64,000 bases of DNA from Lachnospiraceae bacterium. GTDB taxonomy: Bacteria > Bacillota > Clostridia > Lachnospirales > Lachnospiraceae. The notes beneath the pieces were generated by a model. That model did no database searches, was not told the origin of the DNA, and worked only from the letters and a program-made list of their open reading frames with translations. How positions within the stretch are numbered: the stretch's first letter is position 1; every line of letters begins with the position of its first letter. Shown here piece by piece: positions 2,868-19,048 of the stretch. A program made the position numbers and the translations under genes. The stretch is taken from positions 1 through 64,000 of the forward strand of contig JAETOL010000010.1 of the NCBI GenBank assembly GCA_021771755.1, given 5' to 3'.

Positions 2868-2911
2868 ATAGATGACAATCTATCGACGGCGGTTTTTACT
2901 TGTGATATAAT
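2868..2911 (+). promoter_or_regulatory. Extended -10 promoter and palindrome before the GTPase-NYN gene
   Basis: TGATATAAT (2903-2911) is an extended -10 box. A weak -35 (TCGACG, 2883-2888) lies 17 bp upstream. The inverted repeat ATAGAT-GACA-ATCTAT (2868-2883) touches the -35 and is placed like an operator. Confidence 0.5.
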
Positions 2912-2947
2912 TTTTTTATTATACGGACAAATTAGGAGGCACTTTTC

Positions 2948-5710
2948 ATGGGCGTACAGGGACCTGAAAAAAATAAAAAAAAGATATGTGTGGGCATCCT
3001 GGCCCATGTAGATGCGGGAAAGACCACTCTTTCTGAGGGACTGCTTTATCTTTGCGGAGAGATCCGTAAACTTGGGAGAGTGGATCACGGAAACGCATTT
3101 CTGGATACTTATGAACTGGAAAGAGAAAGAGGAATTACAATTTTTTCCAAGCAGGCAGTATTGAAGACTGAAAATATGGAGATCACTCTTCTGGACACAC
3201 CGGGACATGTGGACTTTTCGGCGGAAATGGAACGTACTCTGCAGGTGTTGGATTATGCGATTCTGGTGATCAACGGCATGGACGGAGTACAAAGCCATAC
3301 CATGACTTTATGGCGGCTTCTGGCCCGCTATGAAATTCCTGTTTTTCTTTTTGTAAATAAAATGGATCAGCAGGGGACAGACAGGGAAGGACTTCTGGCA
3401 GATCTCCGGAAAAGACTGAATGAAAACTGTATGGACTTTGGTCCTATGACAGCAGAAAAAGAGAGGGAAAACAGTGATCCGGAGGAACGGGAAGCGCTTC
3501 TGGAGAATCTCTCCATGTGTGAGGAAGCGCTTCTGGAGACCTATCTGGAAACAGGAGAGCTGGAACACGGAGAGATCTGCCGTCTGATTGCAGAGAGAAA
3601 GGTCTTTCCCTGCTGGTTTGGATCTGCACTTAAAATGCAGGGAGTACAGGAATTCCTGAAGGGTCTGGAAAGTTATACGCTCAGCCGGAAATATCCGGAG
3701 GAATTTGGGGCAAAGGTCTTTAAGATCGCCAGAGATCCCCAGGGAAACCGTCTTACTTACCTGAAGATTACAGGAGGAAGTCTGAAAGTAAAAACTCTGT
3801 TGAATGGGGAAAAGATCGACCAGATCCGGATTTATTCCGGGGCAAAGGCAGACAGTGTGCCGGAGGTGCAGGCAGGAGAAATCTGCGCAGTTACCGGACT
3901 TTCCAAAACCTGTCCGGGACAGGGGATCGGAATCGAAGAGGAATCCCGGATGCCTGTGCTGGAACCGGTGCTGAATTATCAGATCCTTCTTCCTGAAGGC
4001 TGTGATCCTCATAAGATGATCCAGAATCTCCGGGAGCTTGAGGAGGAAGAGCCGCAGCTTCACATTCTCTGGGACAGCCGTCTCGGGGAGATCCACGCAC
4101 AGCTTATGGGAGAGGTGCAGACAGAGATTCTGAAAAGTATGATCTGGGACCGTTTTCATGTGGCTGTGGAATTTGGAACGGGAAATATTGTCTATAAAGA
4201 AACCATTGCGGCGCCGGTAGAAGGTGTGGGACATTTTGAGCCTCTCCGTCATTATGCGGAGGTTCATCTCCTTCTGGAGCCGGGAGAACCGGGAAGCGGC
4301 TGTCAGTTTTTTACTGCGTGCAGTGAGGATGTTCTTGCACGGAACTGGCAGAGACTGATCCTGACCCATCTGGAAGAAAAGGAACATCTGGGTGTTCTTA
4401 CCGGATCTCCATTGACAGATGTACAGATCACTCTTTTGACCGGACGGGCACATACCAAGCATACGGAAGGCGGCGACTTCCGTCAGGCAACGTACCGTGC
4501 GGTACGCCAGGGATTGAAAAAAGCAAAAAGTATTCTTCTGGAGCCTTATTATGAATTTCGTCTGGAGGTTCCTTCTGAACTGATCGGCCGTGCCATGTCT
4601 GATATCCAGCAGATGCAGGGAAGCTTTGAACCGCCGGAAACAGAAGGGGATATGTCTGTTCTTACCGGGACGGCTGCTGTTTCCCGGATGCGCGATTATC
4701 AGAAGCAGGTGGTGGCCTATACCAGCGGGAGGGGGAGACTGTTTTGTAACCTGAAAGGTTATGCGCCCTGCAAAAATCAGGAGGCTGTGGTACAGGCTGT
4801 TGGATATGATTCCGAGCATGATCTGGAAAATCCTGCAGGGTCGGTATTTTGTGCACACGGAGCAGGCTTTGTGGTACCCTGGGATCAGGTGGAGGAATAT
4901 ATGCATCTGGACAGTGGAATCGATGCAGAAGCTTTGTCTGCGGAAGCGGAAAGCTGGTATGAGCTTTCAGAGGAAGATGAGAAAGAAAACGGAAGAGTGC
5001 TGTCAGATACTTCAGGAAAAAAATATCAGAAGGGCTATTCCTATAGTGGAAGCTATGAGGATGAGCAGGAGCTGCAGGCAATCTTTGAACGTACCTTTGG
5101 ACCGGTAAAAAGAGAACGGGCTATGTATGCTTCAAAGACTACCGTTTCCTCTCAGAAAGAAACGGTACGGTATCGTCCCGGGAAACCGAGAAAGGAAGAA
5201 TATCTCCTGGTGGACGGGTACAATATTGTTTTTGCCTGGGAGGATCTGCGGGAGCTGGCAAAGGAAAACATCCATGCGGCCTGTGATAAGCTGATGGATA
5301 TTCTCAGTAATTATCAGGGATATCGAAAATGTACTCTGATCCTTGTTTTTGATGCATACAAGGTAGAAGGACATGCAGAGGAGGTCATTCCCTACCATAA
5401 CATTTATGTGGTGTATACAAAAGAGGCGGAGACAGCAGACCAGTATATAGAAAAAACAGTTCACCGGATCGGCCGCCAGTATCAGGTGACAGTGGCAACC
5501 TCTGATGGTCTGGAGCAGATGATCATTCTGGGGCAGGGAGCCAGCAGACTTTCCGCACAGGGATTGAAAAAAGAGATCGAAGACGCGGAAAAAAACGGAA
5601 AACAGGAATGGAGATCACGGCGTCAGAGCAGTAAGAATTATCTTTTTGACAATGTATCGGAAGAACTTTCTGCCCATCTGGAAAAAATCCGAATGGGAGA
5701 GGAGCAGTAG
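2948..5710 (+). CDS. TetM-like ribosomal-protection GTPase fused to a Rae1/YacP-like NYN nuclease domain
   Basis: 920 residues, against about 640 for TetM/TetO. The N-terminal part is an EF-G-like translational GTPase: P-loop AHVDAGKT (19-26), switch I RGIT (61-64), DTPGH (83-87) and NKMD (137-140), followed by EF-G-like domains to about residue 660. A linker leads to a C-terminal NYN/PIN-like domain from about 752, with VDGYN (755-759), FDAY, KEAETAD, ATSD and GQGA. This is the motif series of Rae1 (YacP), which cleaves mRNA in the ribosomal A site in Bacillus. The inference is a single protein that binds the ribosome through its GTPase and presents a nuclease. Tetracycline protection is possible but not shown. 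Start ATG 2948 follows AGGAGG (2934-2939). It is monocistronic, with its own promoter and terminator. Confidence 0.85.
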   Translation: MGVQGPEKNKKKICVGILAHVDAGKTTLSEGLLYLCGEIRKLGRVDHGNAFLDTYELERERGITIFSKQAVLKTENMEITLLDTPGHVDFSAEMERTLQVLDYAILVINGMDGVQSHTMTLWRLLARYEIPVFLFVNKMDQQGTDREGLLADLRKRLNENCMDFGPMTAEKERENSDPEEREALLENLSMCEEALLETYLETGELEHGEICRLIAERKVFPCWFGSALKMQGVQEFLKGLESYTLSRKYPEEFGAKVFKIARDPQGNRLTYLKITGGSLKVKTLLNGEKIDQIRIYSGAKADSVPEVQAGEICAVTGLSKTCPGQGIGIEEESRMPVLEPVLNYQILLPEGCDPHKMIQNLRELEEEEPQLHILWDSRLGEIHAQLMGEVQTEILKSMIWDRFHVAVEFGTGNIVYKETIAAPVEGVGHFEPLRHYAEVHLLLEPGEPGSGCQFFTACSEDVLARNWQRLILTHLEEKEHLGVLTGSPLTDVQITLLTGRAHTKHTEGGDFRQATYRAVRQGLKKAKSILLEPYYEFRLEVPSELIGRAMSDIQQMQGSFEPPETEGDMSVLTGTAAVSRMRDYQKQVVAYTSGRGRLFCNLKGYAPCKNQEAVVQAVGYDSEHDLENPAGSVFCAHGAGFVVPWDQVEEYMHLDSGIDAEALSAEAESWYELSEEDEKENGRVLSDTSGKKYQKGYSYSGSYEDEQELQAIFERTFGPVKRERAMYASKTTVSSQKETVRYRPGKPRKEEYLLVDGYNIVFAWEDLRELAKENIHAACDKLMDILSNYQGYRKCTLILVFDAYKVEGHAEEVIPYHNIYVVYTKEAETADQYIEKTVHRIGRQYQVTVATSDGLEQMIILGQGASRLSAQGLKKEIEDAEKNGKQEWRSRRQSSKNYLFDNVSEELSAHLEKIRMGEEQ

Positions 5711-7480: not shown

Positions 7481-8848
7481 ATGGAGAAAAAATACCGGGA
7501 TAAATACGGGAATTTTGTACATAAACAAAGAAAAAAGGAAGAGGAGATTCTGGATATCTGTCAGGAGATCCTGAAAAACTCGAGAAATGAACTGGGAATC
7601 TCCATGCATTTTCTGTGCAGCCCTCTCAGTGAACTGCGGCCTGTTTTATCAGAAGAGACTTCTGTAATTGGAACAGACGGAAAACAGCTTTTTGTTTCTC
7701 CGGCCTGGCTGATTCCTGTATTTATGAATCAGAAGATCCTGCTGAATCGTCTGTATCTCCATCAGCTTTTGCACTGTCTTTTCTGCCATTTATGGGGGCG
7801 TAAGGACAGGAACCGGAAACTCTGGGATCTGGCTTCTGATATTGCAGTGGAAAACATGATCGATGATCTTTATGCGAAACCGGTCTATATCCGGCCGGGA
7901 AGCTTCCGAAGAGAAATTTACCGGAAGTGGAAGGCGCAGTATGGGATCCTGACCGCAGAGCGTATTTACAGGATTCTGGAAACGCTGCCGGAGGAAAAAA
8001 CAGAAAGACTGATTCAGGAATTTCGCAAAGACGATCATCATTTCTGGAAAAATACAGAAGAAAAAAGCGGGATGGCAAGCCCGAAAAAACATTGGGAGGA
8101 TAAACGGAAAAAGCTTCAGACAGAAATGGAGCTGATGTCCAAAGAAGCTTCCAGAGAGGCACCGACGCTTATGGAACAGCTTCGGGCACAGAACAGAAAA
8201 CGATATGATTACCGGGAATTTCTCCGGCGTTTTTCGGTGCTGAAAGAAGAGATGCAGGTGGACATGGATACCTTTGATTACATTTATTATCATTATGGAA
8301 TGGAACATTACGGAAATCTGCCTCTGATCGAGCCTCTGGAAACAAAAGAAACCCGAAAGATCGAAGATTTTGTGATCGTAGTGGATACGTCCATGTCCTG
8401 CAAAGGGGAGCTGATACAGAAATTTCTGGAGGAAACCTATTGTGTGCTTTCCGGATCCGAAAGCTTTTTCCGAAAAATTCAGGTGCATATTATTCAGTGT
8501 GATGACCGGATCCGGGAGGATGTTGTGATCCATGATCAGGAGGAAATGGAGCAGTATCTTCAGGATTTTACCATAAAAGGCTTCGGAGGAACGGACTTTC
8601 GTCCGGCCTTTCAATATGTGGAGCAGCTGATCAAAAAAGGTGCGTTTCAAAAGCTTCGGGGGCTTCTTTATTTTACGGACGGCTATGGGATATTTCCCGG
8701 AAGGATGCCTCCCTATGATACGGTATTTGTTTTTATGAAAGAGGATTACAGGGATGTGGATGTGCCTCCCTGGGCCATGAAACTGATCCTTGGAGAAGAG
8801 GATCTGATACAGGAAATACAGCAGGAACACCCGAGTGTTTCTGAATAA
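7481..8848 (+). CDS. VWA-like/metallopeptidase-fold protein (COG3864, DUF2201-type)
   Basis: 455 residues, ATG 7481. The N-terminal region has the metallopeptidase-like helix of the family, but the usual HExxH reads HQLLH (94-98), so the catalytic Glu is replaced by Gln. The C-terminal VWA-like domain keeps a MIDAS signature DTSMS (302-306) and a downstream GGTD, suggesting metal-dependent protein binding. Between them is a charged, lysine-rich helical linker. COG3864-type proteins are typically encoded next to MoxR AAA+ ATPases, as here (21 nt upstream of the ATPase gene), and are thought to act as their substrate adaptors. It is probably a peptidase-dead scaffold, though I cannot exclude residual activity. 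Confidence 0.8.
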   Translation: MEKKYRDKYGNFVHKQRKKEEEILDICQEILKNSRNELGISMHFLCSPLSELRPVLSEETSVIGTDGKQLFVSPAWLIPVFMNQKILLNRLYLHQLLHCLFCHLWGRKDRNRKLWDLASDIAVENMIDDLYAKPVYIRPGSFRREIYRKWKAQYGILTAERIYRILETLPEEKTERLIQEFRKDDHHFWKNTEEKSGMASPKKHWEDKRKKLQTEMELMSKEASREAPTLMEQLRAQNRKRYDYREFLRRFSVLKEEMQVDMDTFDYIYYHYGMEHYGNLPLIEPLETKETRKIEDFVIVVDTSMSCKGELIQKFLEETYCVLSGSESFFRKIQVHIIQCDDRIREDVVIHDQEEMEQYLQDFTIKGFGGTDFRPAFQYVEQLIKKGAFQKLRGLLYFTDGYGIFPGRMPPYDTVFVFMKEDYRDVDVPPWAMKLILGEEDLIQEIQQEHPSVSE

Positions 8849-8869
8849 AAAAGAAACAGGAGAAAAATT

Positions 8870-10369
8870 ATGAATATCAGACAGGCAAGACAGGAGGTTG
8901 TGGATACTGTCCGGGCATACCTTTTAAAAAATGAATACGGGGAATATGAGATCCCCACAGTGAGACAGAGACCGATTCTGATCCTTGGGGCTCCGGGGAT
9001 CGGAAAGACCCAGATCATGGAGCAGGCAGCCCGTGAGTGTCAGGTGGCGCTTGTATCTTATACCATCACGCATCACACCAGACAGAGCGCCATCGGGCTT
9101 CCTTATATTTCCAAAAAAGAATATGGAGGCAGATCGTATTCTGCCACAGAATATACCATGAGTGAGATTGTGGCAAGTATTTATGACCGTATGGAGGAAA
9201 CCGGTCTCAGCGAAGGAATCCTTTTTATTGATGAGATCAACTGCGTATCGGAAACACTTGCCCCGGCAATGCTGCAGTTCCTGCAGAATAAAACCTTTGG
9301 AAATCACAGGATCCCGGAGGGATGGGTGATCGCAGCAGCAGGAAATCCACCGGAATATAACAAATCTGTAAGAGAATTTGACGTGGTCACCCTGGATCGT
9401 GTGAAGAAGATCCTGGTGGAACCAGACTATCAGGCATGGCGGAAGTATGCCTGCCAGGAGAACTTTCATCCGGCGATCCTTGCTTATCTGGAACTTCGTA
9501 ATTCCTGCTTTTATCAGATGGAGACCACCATTGACGGAAAGCAGTTTGCAACACCCAGAGGATGGGAGGATCTGTCCAGAATGATGGAAGTATGTGAAAA
9601 AATCGGAAAAGAAATCAACAGAAATCTGGTGATCCAGTATATTCAGCATGACCGGATTTCCGGTGAATTTGCAGATTATTATGAGCTTTATCAAAAGTAT
9701 CAGCAGGATTATCATATTTCCGAGATTTTGGAAGGAAAAAGCTCCGAAGGAATGGTAAAAAAAGTTTCTCATGCGCCTTTTGACGAGAGACTAAGTGTGG
9801 TCAATCTGATCTTTTCCGGTATGCGCCAGAAGATCAGAGAGGCGGTTCAGGGTGAACTGGTTCTGGAAAAAGTGTTTACAGTCCTGAAAAGGCTGAGGCA
9901 GGACCAGACAGAAGAACCCTTGTTTTTCCGGCTGGGAGACTATACAGATGAGCTTCTTAATACCATGGAAAAGAAAAAAGCCCAGGGGCTTCTGGAACGA
10001 AAAGAGGAGCTTTCCGTGAGAAAGGCTGCGGGACTTTTGCGAAGTTATGAAAAAATATTAAAAAGAGAAACTCAGATTCCGGAAGAGGAAAGATTTGATG
10101 CAGTCAGAGACGTTTTTGAAAAAGACAGAGATGCCTGGGAACAGGACTGCGAAACAGCGGAGCATACACTGGAATATGCCTTTGACTTTATGGAAGCAGG
10201 TTTTTACAACAGCCAGGAAATGGTGATGTTTGTATCCGGGATTAATACGGATTTTTACTGTGTGCGATTTCTGGAAACTTATGAGTGCGAGCGCTATATA
10301 AGATATAATAGGGAACTGCTTTTTGAAGACAGAGACAGAGAGCTTCGCAGAAGGATACAGGAGTTATAA
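8870..10369 (+). CDS. MoxR-type AAA+ ATPase
   Basis: 499 residues. Walker A GAPGIGKT (40-47), Walker B LFIDEIN (118-124), and a sensor-like segment AAAGNPPEYNKSVREFD place it in the MoxR/RavA branch of AAA+ proteins. These hexameric ATPases usually work with a VWA partner to remodel or insert cofactors into target complexes. The ~230-residue C-terminal part is helical and charged and is not assigned to a domain. It is third in the operon after the LRR and VWA genes, so the three products probably form one chaperone module. The client is unknown. Confidence 0.85.
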   Translation: MNIRQARQEVVDTVRAYLLKNEYGEYEIPTVRQRPILILGAPGIGKTQIMEQAARECQVALVSYTITHHTRQSAIGLPYISKKEYGGRSYSATEYTMSEIVASIYDRMEETGLSEGILFIDEINCVSETLAPAMLQFLQNKTFGNHRIPEGWVIAAAGNPPEYNKSVREFDVVTLDRVKKILVEPDYQAWRKYACQENFHPAILAYLELRNSCFYQMETTIDGKQFATPRGWEDLSRMMEVCEKIGKEINRNLVIQYIQHDRISGEFADYYELYQKYQQDYHISEILEGKSSEGMVKKVSHAPFDERLSVVNLIFSGMRQKIREAVQGELVLEKVFTVLKRLRQDQTEEPLFFRLGDYTDELLNTMEKKKAQGLLERKEELSVRKAAGLLRSYEKILKRETQIPEEERFDAVRDVFEKDRDAWEQDCETAEHTLEYAFDFMEAGFYNSQEMVMFVSGINTDFYCVRFLETYECERYIRYNRELLFEDRDRELRRRIQEL

Positions 10370-10395: not shown

Positions 10396-10442
10396 CAAAA
10401 TCAGTCAAGGATTTTGTGAAATAGTTTGGATGACTTTGACTG
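10396..10442 (+). promoter_or_regulatory. Candidate FruR (DeoR-family) operator
   Basis: CAGTCAA (10402-10408) is repeated in inverted orientation as TTGACTG (10436-10442). A second inverted repeat, CAAAATC/GATTTTG (10396-10402/10410-10416), overlaps it. Both lie at or just upstream of the fruK promoter and could bind the DeoR-type regulator encoded at 19450-20190. Confidence 0.35.
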
Positions 10443-10458
10443 AATTTAGGAATATAAT
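10430..10458 (+). promoter_or_regulatory. Promoter of the fructose PTS operon
   Basis: -35 ATGACT (10430-10435), 17-bp spacer, -10 TATAAT (10453-10458). The fruK start codon is at 10520 with GGAGGAG upstream. Confidence 0.55.
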
Positions 10459-10519
10459 AAGCACATACAAAAGAAAATGGTCAAAAACAATTAAAGTCAG
10501 TATAGAGGGAGGAGAAAAG

Positions 10520-11301
10520 ATGATCTGTACAGTAACCTTTAACCCATCTCTGGACTACATTGTGGATGTGGAGGATTTCAGACTGGGACTGACCAACCGG
10601 ACAAGCGCAGAAAAAATCCTTCCCGGAGGCAAGGGAATCAATGTTTCCACCGTTCTTATGAACCTGGGAATCCGAAACACAGCCCTTGGTTTTACTGCCG
10701 GTTTCACAGGAGACGAGATCATCCGCAGACTGCAGGAAATGGGAGTGGATTCCGACTTTATTTCTGTGGAAAACGGAATTTCCAGAATCAATGTAAAACT
10801 GAGATCCATCGATGGAACAGAGATCAATGGTGCCGGACCGGAAATCAGTCCGGACAAGGTGGAAGAACTGATGGAAAAACTGGATCAGCTTCAAAAAGGA
10901 GATGTCCTTTTTCTTGCAGGGAGTATTCCGTCGTCCATGCCTGACGATATGTATGAGAGAATCATGGACCAGCTGAAAGAAAGAGATGTGACCACTGTTG
11001 TAGATGCAACCAGAGACCTGCTGGTGAAGGTGCTGAAATACCATCCCTTCCTTGTAAAACCAAACAATCATGAACTGGGTGAGATCTTTGGAGTGGAACT
11101 GAACACCAGAGAGGATGTGGTTCCTTATGGTAAGAAGCTGCAGGAAATGGGAGCGAAAAATGTTCTGGTTTCCATGGCCGGAGAGGGAGCTGTTCTGATC
11201 GCAGCGGACGGTCAGGTGTACCAGAAGCCGGTTCCAAAAGGAACACTGGTAAACGGTGTAGGTGCCGGGGATTCCATGGTGGCAGGCTTTATGGCAGGCT
11301 G
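10520..11301 (+). pseudogene. fruK: 1-phosphofructokinase, 5' part (gene split by a 6-kb element)
   Basis: PfkB-family kinase that phosphorylates fructose 1-phosphate to fructose 1,6-bisphosphate. It runs from ATG 10520 (GGAGGAGAAAAG upstream) with the N-terminal MICTVTFNPSLDYIVDV, the LPGGKGINVS-type substrate loop and the C-terminal GVGAGDSMVAGF anion-hole motif. Host sequence ends at the attachment site near 11301, and the reading frame runs only four more residues into the element before a stop. The missing 3' end is at 17339-17489. Joining the pieces gives a continuous 310-residue protein, the normal length. Without it the C-terminal helix is missing, so activity in the integrated state is doubtful. 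Confidence 0.9.
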
Positions 11302-13040
11302 TGCAGAAAGGTAAAAATACAGGGGTTTTTAATGAAATGAGCACTGTCCTCATTCTCTTTCCTATGTAACGAGGAAATCTGTTCGATTTCCTCCAACCTG
11401 ATAACGCAGTTTTTCTTTCGTCCCTCTGCGGTAAAGGTTGCTTTCACATTGGCATCTCCATTTAATTTTAGATACCAATCGAATGTTGTGTCAGTAGTCG
11501 GGATAACCATATAGACAAATTGATTGATAACATCGTGGCTGATTGTGCTGCCGCTAAAATCAATTAGGCTGTTGAGTGTTGAACGAATACCCTCTAAATC
11601 TAATCCTCTTGGACTGATTGCATCTGTCGGAGCTTCGTTAAGCTCCTTTTGTAACTTCTGGATTTCGGTATCAATCGGACTTCTCATTGTCTGATATTCG
11701 TCTTTGCTGATTTCTCCGTCTGCTCTCATAGCAATAAGGTTTGTCAACCTCTGATTTGCCTTATTGAGTTTTGCTTGTATTGCTTCAATATCTAAGCTGT
11801 TTCCCGTAGCACTTTCTTCCTTATAATAATGCTTAATAAGGTCTAAGGCGATGAGGACAGCTTCTTTTCGTTCTGTCCATAAATGCTCTAACAGAGCCTT
11901 CGCCATAAAATCAAGTTTCCAATCGGTTATCATTTTAATATCACAATAGCCCTCGGTATCTAATCCTAACTCTGCCCTTTTTCGCTTAATGCCATTGTTA
12001 AGCTGATTATAGCATTGATAGCCATACGATATTTTCCCATCCAACTTAGTATGCCATTTGTTTTTACGGAATGATGACCCACAAGAGCAACGCAGCTTGT
12101 TGACCCATATATCCCGTGAGTCACGCTTGCTGTGAGTGGTTTTCCCTGCCGTCACTAAAGCAGGCTTTACTCTGCTTTCTCGTATTGTCTGAGCTTTATC
12201 CCAAATCTCCTGAGAAATAATAGCGGGGAAGTCGCCCTCTACATATTCATAAGTGGACATATCCAGATTATTAACTCTCTTTTGCTCCAGAAAGTTATTG
12301 CTTCTGGATTTGTTATAGCATTTTGTTCCTGTATAAGTGGCGTTTTTAATTGTTCTCATAATATTAGAAACGCTCCACTTAACAAGTCCTGAAGCTGTTT
12401 TCCTCTTTTGCTCGGTCAGCATCTTTGCAATTTTCATTGAGCCATAGCCTTTTAGATACAGGTCGTAAATGATGCGTACCGTTTCTGCCTGTTCTTCGTT
12501 AATAACATAGGTATCACCTACACGGTCATATCCTAAAATATTTCCGTTTCCATAGAGAACACCATTATCACGGCTGATTTTCTGTCCTGCCTTCACACGC
12601 TCGGAAGTTTTACGACTTTCCTCCTGAGCCAATGTTGCCATAAGAGATAATCTCAACTCTCCGTCACCGTCCATAGTCCAGATGTTGTCATCAATGAAGA
12701 ACACTTCCACACCGATATTTTTCAGTTCTCTGGTAACTACAAGAGTATCTACGACATTTCTTGCAAAACGGCAAACCTCTCTGGTAACAATCAAATCAAA
12801 TTTACCCCGCTTTGCATCTTCAATCATACGCAAAAATGCAGGTCTTTTTTTAGCCTGTGTACCTGTGATACCCTCATCTATATAGCGTTCACAAACAGTC
12901 CAATTCAGATGATACCTAACTTGGTCATCATACCATTGTAACTGATTTTCAAGAGCTGATAACTGTGCTTCGTGTTCCGTAGAAAGACGACCATAAAACA
13001 AAAGAATTAACCAACCTAAAAGAATTAAAAATGTTCTCAT
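11289..13040 (-). CDS. Large serine recombinase (integrase)
   Basis: 583 residues. The N-terminal resolvase domain has the catalytic motif YGRLSTEHEAQ (the serine of RLST), then the conserved TREVCRFARN helix; next are a Recombinase domain (KIAKMLTEQ and following), a zinc ribbon (KLRCSCGSSFRK with later cysteines) and a coiled-coil region. It catalyses integration and excision of the element. The first 15 residues are unusually hydrophobic. I keep ATG 13040 because it overlaps the stop of the upstream KTR gene (ATGA). The last codons and the TAA stop (11289-11291) lie in host fruK DNA beyond the crossover, so the C-terminus depends on integration state: in the circular form the frame continues into 17335-17185. 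Confidence 0.9.
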   Translation of the reverse strand: MRTFLILLGWLILLFYGRLSTEHEAQLSALENQLQWYDDQVRYHLNWTVCERYIDEGITGTQAKKRPAFLRMIEDAKRGKFDLIVTREVCRFARNVVDTLVVTRELKNIGVEVFFIDDNIWTMDGDGELRLSLMATLAQEESRKTSERVKAGQKISRDNGVLYGNGNILGYDRVGDTYVINEEQAETVRIIYDLYLKGYGSMKIAKMLTEQKRKTASGLVKWSVSNIMRTIKNATYTGTKCYNKSRSNNFLEQKRVNNLDMSTYEYVEGDFPAIISQEIWDKAQTIRESRVKPALVTAGKTTHSKRDSRDIWVNKLRCSCGSSFRKNKWHTKLDGKISYGYQCYNQLNNGIKRKRAELGLDTEGYCDIKMITDWKLDFMAKALLEHLWTERKEAVLIALDLIKHYYKEESATGNSLDIEAIQAKLNKANQRLTNLIAMRADGEISKDEYQTMRSPIDTEIQKLQKELNEAPTDAISPRGLDLEGIRSTLNSLIDFSGSTISHDVINQFVYMVIPTTDTTFDWYLKLNGDANVKATFTAEGRKKNCVIRLEEIEQISSLHRKENEDSAHFIKNPCIFTFLHSLP

Positions 13041-17184: not shown

Positions 17185-17335
17185 TTAATCAAGGTCGATT
17201 AACACCCTTACGGTTGTTTCTCGCCATTGATTTTTCCTTACATATTGCCCGTTAGCCTTACGATAGGCTGCTGCCTGCTCAAAACTAAGCGGTAAATCAA
17301 AGGAAAGAGAACTCCTACCTATTTGCGATAGCCGC
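17185..17335 (-). other. Alternative recombinase C-terminal tail next to attR
   Basis: An open minus-strand frame from the attR crossover to TAA at 17185 (about 50 codons, including FDLPLSFEQAAAYRKANGQY) has no start or ribosome site of its own. When the element circularises it becomes contiguous and in frame with the recombinase coding region, replacing the host-encoded residues HSLP. I infer that it is the recombinase's native C-terminus in the excised form. Confidence 0.6.
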
Positions 17336-17338
17336 CTG

Positions 17339-17489
17339 GATGGAAAAAAAGGATTACCGGCATGCTTTTTATATGGGAATCGCGGCAGGAAGTGCAAGTG
17401 CCTTTTCGGAAAATCTGGCAACAGGTAAGGAAATCGAAGCAGTCTACCGTCAGGTAGCGCAGGAAATGAAGGAGGAGAAAGTGTTATGA
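17339..17489 (+). pseudogene. fruK: 1-phosphofructokinase, 3' part
   Basis: The in-frame host sequence reads MEKKDYRHAFYMGIAAGSAS and ends EEKVL before TGA 17487-17489. It is the C-terminal ~49 residues of the fruK split at 11301. The stop overlaps the fruA start (ATGA). It has no initiation signals and is translated only after element excision. Confidence 0.9.
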
Positions 17490-19048
17490 GAATCACAGAT
17501 CTGCTTGACAGAAGAAGTGTATCACTGACTGCAGCTCCGGGAAGCAAATCAGAAGCTCTGGATATGGCTGTGGATCTTATGGTCAGAAGTGAAAAGATCA
17601 GTGACAGAGATGCTTATCGGGCACAGGTGTATTTAAGAGAAGAAGAAAGTACCACCGGTATCGGAGAGGGAATTGCCATTCCTCATGGGAAATGTGATGC
17701 GGTAAAGAAGCCCGGACTGGCAGCCATGGTGATAAAAGACGGTGTGGAATTTGAGTCACTGGATGATGAACCGGTAACCCTCCTTTTTTTGATTGCTGCT
17801 CCAAATACATAGGACAATGTTCAGCTGGATGTGCTCAGTAAACTTTCGGTGATGCTGATGGACGAGGACTTTATCGCAGCGCTCAGAAACGCACAGTCCG
17901 TAGATGAATTTATGGATATTATCGATAAAGCAGATCAGGAGAAAAAGGACATTGACGAAAGACTGGCAGGCTCCCAGAATACTTCTTCAGGCGCAAAGGC
18001 AGGCGGCAGTGCCGGCCATAAGATATATACCCAGCTTATGAACGGTGTTTCCCACATGCTTCCTCTTGTTGTGGGAGGCGGAATCCTGATCGCTATTGCT
18101 TTCCTGATCGATGGTCTTTTCGTTGATTTGAATGCTCTTCCTGCTGACCAGAGATCAAATTTCGGTACCATTACCCCAGTGGCGGCTGTCCTGAAAAATA
18201 TTGGCGGCACAGCCTTTGGCTTCATGCTTCCTGTCCTGTCTGGTTTCATTGCAATGGCCATCGGTGACAGACCGGCACTGGCGGTTGGTCTTGTGGGAGG
18301 CATGATCGCGGCAAATGGAAAATCCGGCTTCCTTGGAGCACTTCTGGCAGGCTTTCTGGCAGGCTATCTGATCCTTGGACTTCGCAAAATCTGCGATAAG
18401 CTTCCGGAAGCTCTGGAAAAGATTGCCCCGGTTCTGATCTATCCGGTAGTGGGAATCCTTTTTATGGGACTGATCATGACATTTATTGTGGAACCTGTTA
18501 TGGGCGGCCTGAATACAGGGCTAAATAATGCCTTGACAGGAATGGGAAATACAAGTAAAGTTATTTTAGGAATTGTTCTTGGCGGAATGATGGCCATAGA
18601 CATGGGAGGCCCGTTCAATAAGGCGGCTTATGTATTTGGTACAGCGTCAATTGCAGCAGGAAATTATGATATCATGGCAGCAGTTATGGTCGGCGGAATG
18701 ACACCTCCATGTGCCATTGCCCTTGCATCCCTTCTCTTTAAGGATAAGTTTACAAAGGAAGAGAGAGAGGCAGGTCCTACAAACTTTATTATGGGACTGG
18801 CATTTATTACAGAGGGAGCGATTCCCTTTGCGGCTTCCGATCCGCTGCATGTACTTCCTTCCTGCGTTGCAGGCTCAGCAGTGGCAGGCGCTGTTTCCAT
18901 GATGTTTGACTATACGCTGATGGCACCTCACGGTGGAATCTTTGTATTCCCGGTAGTAGGAAATGCAGTAGCCTACGTCGCAGCTCTTGTTGCAGGAACT
19001 GTGATCTCGGCACTTCTTCTCGGCATATTAAAGAAGAAAGCAGTATAA
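17486..19048 (+). pseudogene. fruA: Fructose PTS EIIA-EIIC gene, interrupted by TAG and lacking EIIB
   Basis: Membrane permease/kinase that imports fructose as fructose 1-phosphate. EIIA runs from ATG 17486 with the active His67 in AIPHGK. An in-frame TAG (17810-17812) follows LFLIAAPNT; the frame then continues as DNVQLDVLSKL to 19048, and family homologues read through here, so one codon change is implied. A GTG at 17831 could reinitiate. After EIIA a short Gly/Ser linker passes straight to EIIC (HKIYTQLMNGVSHMLPLVVG), so the ~100-residue EIIB with its phosphocysteine (usual CPTGIAHT) is absent. The remaining EIIC is about 350 residues. Transport by this protein alone is unlikely unless EIIB is supplied in trans. 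Confidence 0.85.

Follow-up and report, generated by a model that had tools for sequence, protein, structure and literature searches.

The stretch of DNA analysed here, which we call the window, comprises positions 1 to 64,000 of contig JAETOL010000010.1 from a Lachnospiraceae bacterium (GenBank assembly GCA_021771755.1). Near its start, at 2948-5710 on the forward strand, lies an uninterrupted open reading frame (ORF) that begins with ATG and runs for 920 codons (920 amino acids plus stop). An earlier note, written from the letters alone, had described the product as a translational GTPase of the TetM/EF-G type fused to a ribosome-associated nuclease resembling Rae1 (YacP), and the Pfam domains found along the single unbroken frame confirm this fusion. 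Comparison with other genomes indicates that the fused protein looks like a stand-in for the free Rae1 of other Clostridia and like the only Rae1 of its cell. The features of the gene are as follows.

2883..2911, + strand: promoter-like site TCGACG-17-TATAAT with TG before the -10 (extended -10); consensus match only
2934..2939, + strand: ribosome binding site AGGAGG, eight bases 5' of the ATG; from sequence
2948..5710, + strand: fused gene, 920 amino acids plus stop; from sequence
2981..3676, + strand: G domain (residues 12-243); Pfam GTP_EFTU, motif residues invariant in 45/45 fused proteins
3704..4177, + strand: EF-G domains II and III (residues 253-410); Pfam scores below cut-off, and predicted structure
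4184..4528, + strand: EF-G domain IV (residues 413-527); Pfam EFG_IV
4442..4483, + strand: domain IV tip loop GRAHTKHTEGGDFR (residues 499-512), unlike that of Tet(W) and Tet(S); alignment
4535..4780, + strand: EF-G domain V (residues 530-611); Pfam EFG_C
4781..4915, + strand: C-terminal extension common to free GTPases (residues 612-656); alignment
4916..5197, + strand: tether (residues 657-750), largely disordered in the model; predicted local distance difference test score (pLDDT) below 50 at residues 679-704 and 721-745
5054..5098, + strand: predicted helix in the tether (residues 703-717); alignment and predicted structure
5204..5692, + strand: YacP/Rae1-type NYN endoribonuclease domain (residues 753-915); Pfam, with Asp 756, 802, 831 and 853 invariant

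The promoter-like site ends 36 bases before the start codon, and consensus matches of this kind are not commoner in the region than chance would give (3, against a mean of 3.7 in shuffles). An Rfam search of the window returned no match at gathering scores.

The G domain motifs and EF-G domains IV and V place the N-terminal part in the EF2 family. Domains II and III just missed the Pfam cut-offs of 27 and 27 (EF-G_D2 at residues 253-321, 26.9 bits; EFG_III at residues 339-410, 26.1 bits), and whole EF-G structures were the best Foldseek matches of the AlphaFold model of the fused protein (mean pLDDT 85.0; predicted template-modelling score, pTM, 0.66). The C-terminal part falls in the Rae1/YacP family, as the note had proposed: NYN_YacP matches residues 753-915 at 176.5 bits against a cut-off of 24.6 (E=5.6e-52), residues 752-918 match the Bacillus subtilis YacP/Rae1 crystal structures 5mq8 and 5mq9 by sequence, and the three best solved structures found by Foldseek with the model of this domain are 5mq8_A, 5mq9_A and 5mq9_B (E 1.4e-11 to 7.5e-11; template-modelling score by target 0.67-0.75).

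Judged from the alignments, both halves of the protein are intact and constrained. In the GTPase, residues A19, V21, D22, G24-L28, T64, DTPGH 83-87, N137, K138 and D140 are invariant in 45/45 fused proteins from other genomes, in keeping with the intact motifs first read from the sequence. In the nuclease, the same holds for D756, N759, D802, D831, E835, S852, D853 and Q857 (45/45), and the four aspartates D756, D802, D831 and D853 are equally invariant in 35/35 free Rae1 proteins; we take these conserved acidic residues to be catalytic, as in the NYN/PIN fold generally. The motif series that had been pointed out is present in full (VDGYN 755-759, FDAY 801-804, KEAETAD 825-831, ATSD 850-853, GQGA 862-865), with only G864 of GQGA invariant among the 45 fused proteins. 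These proteins and that of the window align throughout. The roughly 95 residues that separate the halves are poorly conserved in the 45-protein alignment and mostly disordered in the AlphaFold model. The tether helix has the consensus ELxxIFxRTYG in named fused relatives, has diverged in one sub-clade (for example EIDQIINxTFYANQGKK), and lies in a region before which free GTPases terminate.

The nuclease domain (PF05991) was sought at four ranks, with frame length taken as the sign of fusion; 45 fused proteins were read and aligned. Within the genus the domain was found in 58/60 genomes, including 32/32 of high quality, and lies in 56 single frames of 876-1101 amino acids, one frame of 458 and one split over contig ends. 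Within the family it was found in 180/200 genomes and within the class in 192/293; ORF lengths at these two ranks rest on 149 listed genomes each, which for the family gave 131 with frames of at least 800 amino acids, 11 of at most 220 and 7 intermediate. Fused-type genomes, defined by an NYN or GTPase match in a frame of at least 800 amino acids, number 98 of the 293 in the class, all 98 of them positive for NYN; free-type genomes number 58 among those listed and about 87 by subtraction, a count that sets aside six genomes with partial fused frames and treats G456 (under cut-off) as lacking the domain. At the rank of phylum 85/149 genomes were positive, 84 of them above cut-off once G517 is left out: 11 fused, 72 free and one of 308 amino acids. 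The wide conservation of the fusion that the note had thought worth surveying is borne out by the genus (56/60) and the class (98/293).

Among named relatives, taken as the best 80 of 596 stretches (at least 596 matches), an ORF with both parts occurs in 80/80, one being a 481-residue piece at a contig end; they include Blautia, Mediterraneibacter, Anaerostipes, Caproicibacter, Oscillibacter, Flavonifractor, Desulfosporosinus and others. The best of them is from Blautia (76% identity over the C-terminal half, 77% over the whole), a likeness that would by itself point to the family Lachnospiraceae. Seven of the 80 were left out of the structure alignment. In the collection of loci, L001 and L005-L034 gave way to longer stretches, and L134 contributed nothing. 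Because both parts occur in all of the best 80 named relatives, the 45 fused proteins align throughout and 56/60 genus genomes hold a single long ORF, the fusion is not a chance event or an artefact.

The window's genome (164 contigs, 99.98% complete) holds a single YacP domain, that of the fused gene, and three EFG_IV domains, which belong to two EF-G-like proteins and the fused protein. In B. subtilis rae1 is encoded beside yacO/rlmB (PMC6613710). The free gene adjoins rlmB in 8/11 of the free loci inspected (of 35), mostly in the order cysS-mrnC-rlmB-rae1-sigH, with operon genes named by similarity or, for C. difficile, by annotation. The window's genome has the corresponding cysS-mrnC-rlmB-sigH operon without the rae1 that other Clostridia keep there. 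The same was found more generally: rae1 lies near rlmB (about 5 kb on each side) in 0/20 genomes chosen as having the fused form (listed as such for 19, with G072 the exception), and rlmB and sigH are neighbours in 14/20 of them, the window's genome included, when ORFs of at least 120 amino acids are considered. Genomes of other families with the fused gene likewise lack rae1 at rlmB. Both forms occur together in only 1/293 class genomes (G478), against 29 expected if they were independent, a comparison that is descriptive and not a test because the genomes are related. Use of one form per genome is nearly exclusive. In keeping with this, the fused form looks like the usual version of Rae1 in many gut Clostridia and, going by gene content, like a replacement for the free one.

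Of the four class genomes that gave two matches, G478 alone has complete copies of both forms: it carries the whole GTPase-Rae1 gene and a free rae1 in the order mrnC-rlmB-rae1-sigH on different contigs (loci L048, L086). The second YacP matches in G318, G372 and G405 do not reach the family cut-off (about 21 bits). Other apparent duplicates were set aside: G076 and G173 each hold one gene cut by contig ends, the second copy in G039 is a contig-end fragment, that in G154 is the same stretch on two contigs, and that in G130 is one frame in two pieces. In G388 (L249) rlmB and the fused gene share a strand at a distance of about 5 kb, which puts the fused gene close to where other genomes have rae1. 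A C. difficile record filed as a plasmid (L259, 566-6507) carries gltX, cysS, a gene with a ribonuclease III domain, thyX, rlmB and the free nuclease; it is one of twelve such records, the only one inspected, and is by its gene content probably a chromosomal fragment. The eleven further C. difficile plasmid records also match the free nuclease.

The origin of the fusion was approached through trees of both halves. A quick tree without bootstrap of 65 GTPases (45 fused, 20 free) and two EF-G outgroups gathers the 45 fused GTPases in one clade (SH-like approximate likelihood-ratio test, SH-aLRT, 99), with none of the 20 sampled free GTPases nested inside; it does not resolve the branching order among groups of fused genes from different families. 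In the NYN tree the fused domains group with the free Rae1 proteins of eight genomes, seven from the window's family and one from its order, and a second tree that omits the long rows L094 and L113 unites the fused domains and these free Rae1 proteins in one clade (SH-aLRT 99). Fused genes of other families, f26, f49, f77, f21 and f9 being examples, branch in the NYN tree from within the group formed by the window's family. The genes of f11, f12, f17, f18, f56 and f59 make up another set, which stands beside that group and not within it; G488 (f77), which has a fused gene, belongs to another class. We favour, on these trees, one fusion near the root of the window's order that used the Rae1 of that order and was then transferred to other families. 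Our reading is that the native rae1 would have been lost in the recipient families, with G478 representing a stage that holds both. An older fusion followed by losses, or gene-tree error on a short alignment, are the alternatives.

The same evidence bears on whether the two halves cooperate at all. The fusion might merely fix co-expression and ribosome tethering, the GTPase serving as a general A-site factor and the nuclease as an ordinary Rae1 on separate occasions. The long, mostly disordered and poorly conserved tether agrees with such coupling without cooperation, as does the occurrence of free GTPases and free Rae1 each on its own. We nevertheless regard it as unlikely, given that the fused GTPases form one clade across many families with no sampled free GTPase (n=20) nested in it and that rae1 is missing beside rlmB in fused-gene genomes of other families. 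The spread of one fused clade through many families and the departure of rae1 from rlmB suggest, rather, that the joint form does something that the separate forms do not. Six class genomes (loci L069, L070, L071, L072, L073 and L074) carry a GTPase of this clade with no YacP match, which makes an independent function of the GTPase probable as well.

Given its kinship with Tet proteins, the GTPase might be a ribosomal protection protein of the tetracycline type, with the RNase as a second layer, as Atkinson 2015 proposed (PMC4342817). Tet models do score best in NCBIfam, one fused gene is annotated as a member of the TetM/TetW/TetO/TetS family, and of four genes nearest otr(A), distant relatives in this context, two are reported to give a 1-4-fold rise in minimum inhibitory concentration in E. 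coli and two none (PMC7725328). The scores themselves tell another story: the best model, tet_protect, gives 431.6 bits against a cut-off of 775 and the second best, OtrA, 327.7 against 900, and the protein falls under every Tet and OtrA cut-off among the NCBIfam models listed. Identity is 28% to Tet(W) and to Tet(S), no more than to EF-G (29%), and in a search of the PDB S. aureus EF-G scored as high as TetM (262.5 and 253.5 bits). The tip of domain IV reads GRAHTKHTEGGDFR where Tet(W) and Tet(S) have GLYYSPVSTPADFR, and it is the domain IV loops of Tet proteins that are described as interacting with and dislodging tetracycline (PMC4342817). The tip residues KHT and GGDFR occur in 20/20 free GTPases, and each residue in 42-45 of the 45 fused proteins. 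Nor does the distribution resemble that of mobile resistance genes. The fused gene is a core gene, single-copy in most family genomes sampled; the nuclease domain is present in 23 plasmid records, two of which (among the 20 listed) have it as part of a GTPase gene, on replicons larger than 250 kb (252 and 518 kb); and the promoter-like site leaves just those 36 bases before the start. A resistance function is therefore improbable in our judgement. Given the core distribution, a housekeeping role seems more likely as far as sequence can tell, and the part of the earlier note that had the protein dock on drug-bound ribosomes finds no support in the tip, the cut-offs and the copy number.

With Tet(M), Tet(O), Tet(W) and Tet(S) the fused protein thus shares the EF-G-like order of domains and differs by its tip loop, C-terminal extension, tether and NYN domain. 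The likeness to Otr(A), compared by profile score alone, lies in the second-best NCBIfam model; Otr(A) was not found among the matches listed (40 of 630). Closer are the free GTPases of the same clade, from class genomes and Ligilactobacillus salivarius plasmids, which show 41-52% identity and the same tip and C-terminal extension but lack the tether and NYN domain. One of them (L257, 4542-6932; about 50% identity, annotated Tet) adjoins a ribosomal protein S14 gene on an L. salivarius plasmid, and 44 Ligilactobacillus records are among those 630 matches. B. subtilis Rae1 (5mq8, 5mq9) has the domain, the catalytic acidic residues and the predicted fold in common with the fused protein; it stands alone beside yacO/rlmB, whereas the Rae1 of the window is fused to a GTPase and encoded elsewhere in the genome. 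Reported targets of the B. subtilis enzyme are yrzI/S1025 and bmrCD.

EF-G-type GTPases insert domain IV into the ribosomal A site. On balance, and with modest confidence, we hold that the fused Rae1, carried on a mostly flexible tether of about 95 residues at the C-terminus of a Tet/OtrA-like GTPase, is the only Rae1 of the cell and acts on ribosomes in a dock-then-cut order. Most likely, we infer, the GTPase serves to deliver Rae1 to ribosomes in which the A site is vacant or blocked. Ribosome binding, the order of events, cleavage and rescue would then proceed as follows. In its GTP form the GTPase would dock at the factor site when the A site of the ribosome is empty or blocked, and domain IV would enter the decoding site to sense or clear it. 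Hydrolysis of GTP would allow domain IV to withdraw, the tethered NYN domain, at high local concentration, could enter the vacated A site and cut the mRNA, and the cut message would let trans-translation free the ribosome. Such a hand-over (dock, inspect or clear, hydrolyse, withdraw, cut) is proposed because domain IV and the NYN domain cannot share the A site at once, and the long tether would fit it. More specifically, and only tentatively, the protein may be a GTP-gated mRNA cutter, in which the GTPase serves as loading factor and allows Rae1 to cut only on ribosomes that the GTPase has already inspected. Such a protein would by itself set rescue in motion; it would be the standard form in the window's family and would have passed to other Clostridia, where it displaced their free Rae1. 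Simple tethering without gating is also possible.

That the nuclease half cuts mRNA in the A site is taken from B. subtilis Rae1, the closest characterised relative, for which such cleavage has been reported (PMC6613710, PMC12320835). An older proposal for NYN proteins, cited in Atkinson 2015 (PMC4342817), would have the domain mature rRNA or tRNA and the GTPase assist in assembly. Links to subunit assembly have indeed been described for LepA and BipA, which are EF-G paralogues, and in view of the reported activity of Rae1 we think this very unlikely. RelE-family toxins also cut mRNA in the A site (PMC12320835), and it is conceivable that the protein recognises an infection by the block in translation and then destroys mRNA, as a phage defence or abortive response. 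To this we give hardly any credence: PADLOC gave no match for the fused protein at E 0.001, there is no conserved neighbourhood (the commonest neighbour family occurs in 9/81 loci only), and the gene is present in most genus and family genomes sampled.

Several observations weigh against the dock-then-cut reading and the single origin that accompanies it. Domain IV and the NYN domain compete for one site and must act in turn or on different ribosomes, and at its pTM of 0.66 the model does not fix the placement of the NYN domain relative to the GTPase. The Rae1 of B. subtilis is stand-alone, G042 carries the two parts as neighbouring separate frames, and no experiment on the fused protein was found in the literature searched. 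The fused gene is dispensable, since 20/200 family genomes lack a YacP domain and none of these 20 has the GTPase at E 1e-60. As found, the NYN tree needs three changes between fused and free forms (two once the long rows are removed), which leaves room for a second fusion or for some fissions; a tree with a single fused NYN clade is no worse (log-likelihood 2.03 higher; approximately unbiased test p 0.55, not rejected). Three free Rae1 genes from the window's order (L043, L047, L049) are located away from rlmB. Finally, among non-fused genomes the free GTPase is weakly associated with free Rae1 (13/87, against 6/102 without Rae1; Fisher p 0.052, uncorrected for kinship), an association weak enough that the free GTPase was rejected as an obligate partner of free Rae1.

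A Tet-subfamily GTPase joined to a YacP-like NYN RNase has been reported in ten Clostridiales by Atkinson 2015 (PMC4342817), where the NYN domain is called acquired and a resistance mechanism involving RNase activity is suggested. Those Tet-NYN proteins have the same architecture as the fused protein of the window, and the available text of that paper makes no mention of loss of free yacP, of the operon, of a single origin or of transfer (PMC4342817). The fusion architecture is accordingly not new and has been in print since 2015; among the papers that the literature searches listed, PMC4342817 alone was found to name it. The Rae1 papers of 2017 (Leroy) and 2018 (Condon) appeared later. The replacement of free Rae1 by the fusion is, as far as we have searched, new: no description of it was found in the literature searched, which leaves most subscription journals outside.

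On the question of how Rae1-like nucleases choose their ribosomes, a nuclease that is gone from its usual operon and attached to a GTPase of the A-site type points to a physical answer, and the fused gene is well suited to studying how bacteria direct RNA cleavage to stuck ribosomes. Our results also suggest that in gut Clostridia the label TetM/TetW/TetO/TetS, where given to genes of this clade, more probably marks core translation factors with an RNase than resistance genes, which would matter for resistome counts.

Elsewhere in the window, two neighbouring genes at 7481-10369 look by eye like a pair of VWA-type protein and MoxR-like ATPase, the second with a marginal PADLOC match (E 0.00036). 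At 10430-11314 a PfkB-family kinase gene ends short of the end of the profile, beside a serine recombinase gene of the resolvase/recombinase type at 11289-13040. About 6 kb further on, at about 17300-17500, a short frame resembles by eye the C-terminus of PfkB and is followed by a gene that, also by eye, is like those of the fructose phosphotransferase system; the split PfkB region looks like the site of an inserted mobile element.

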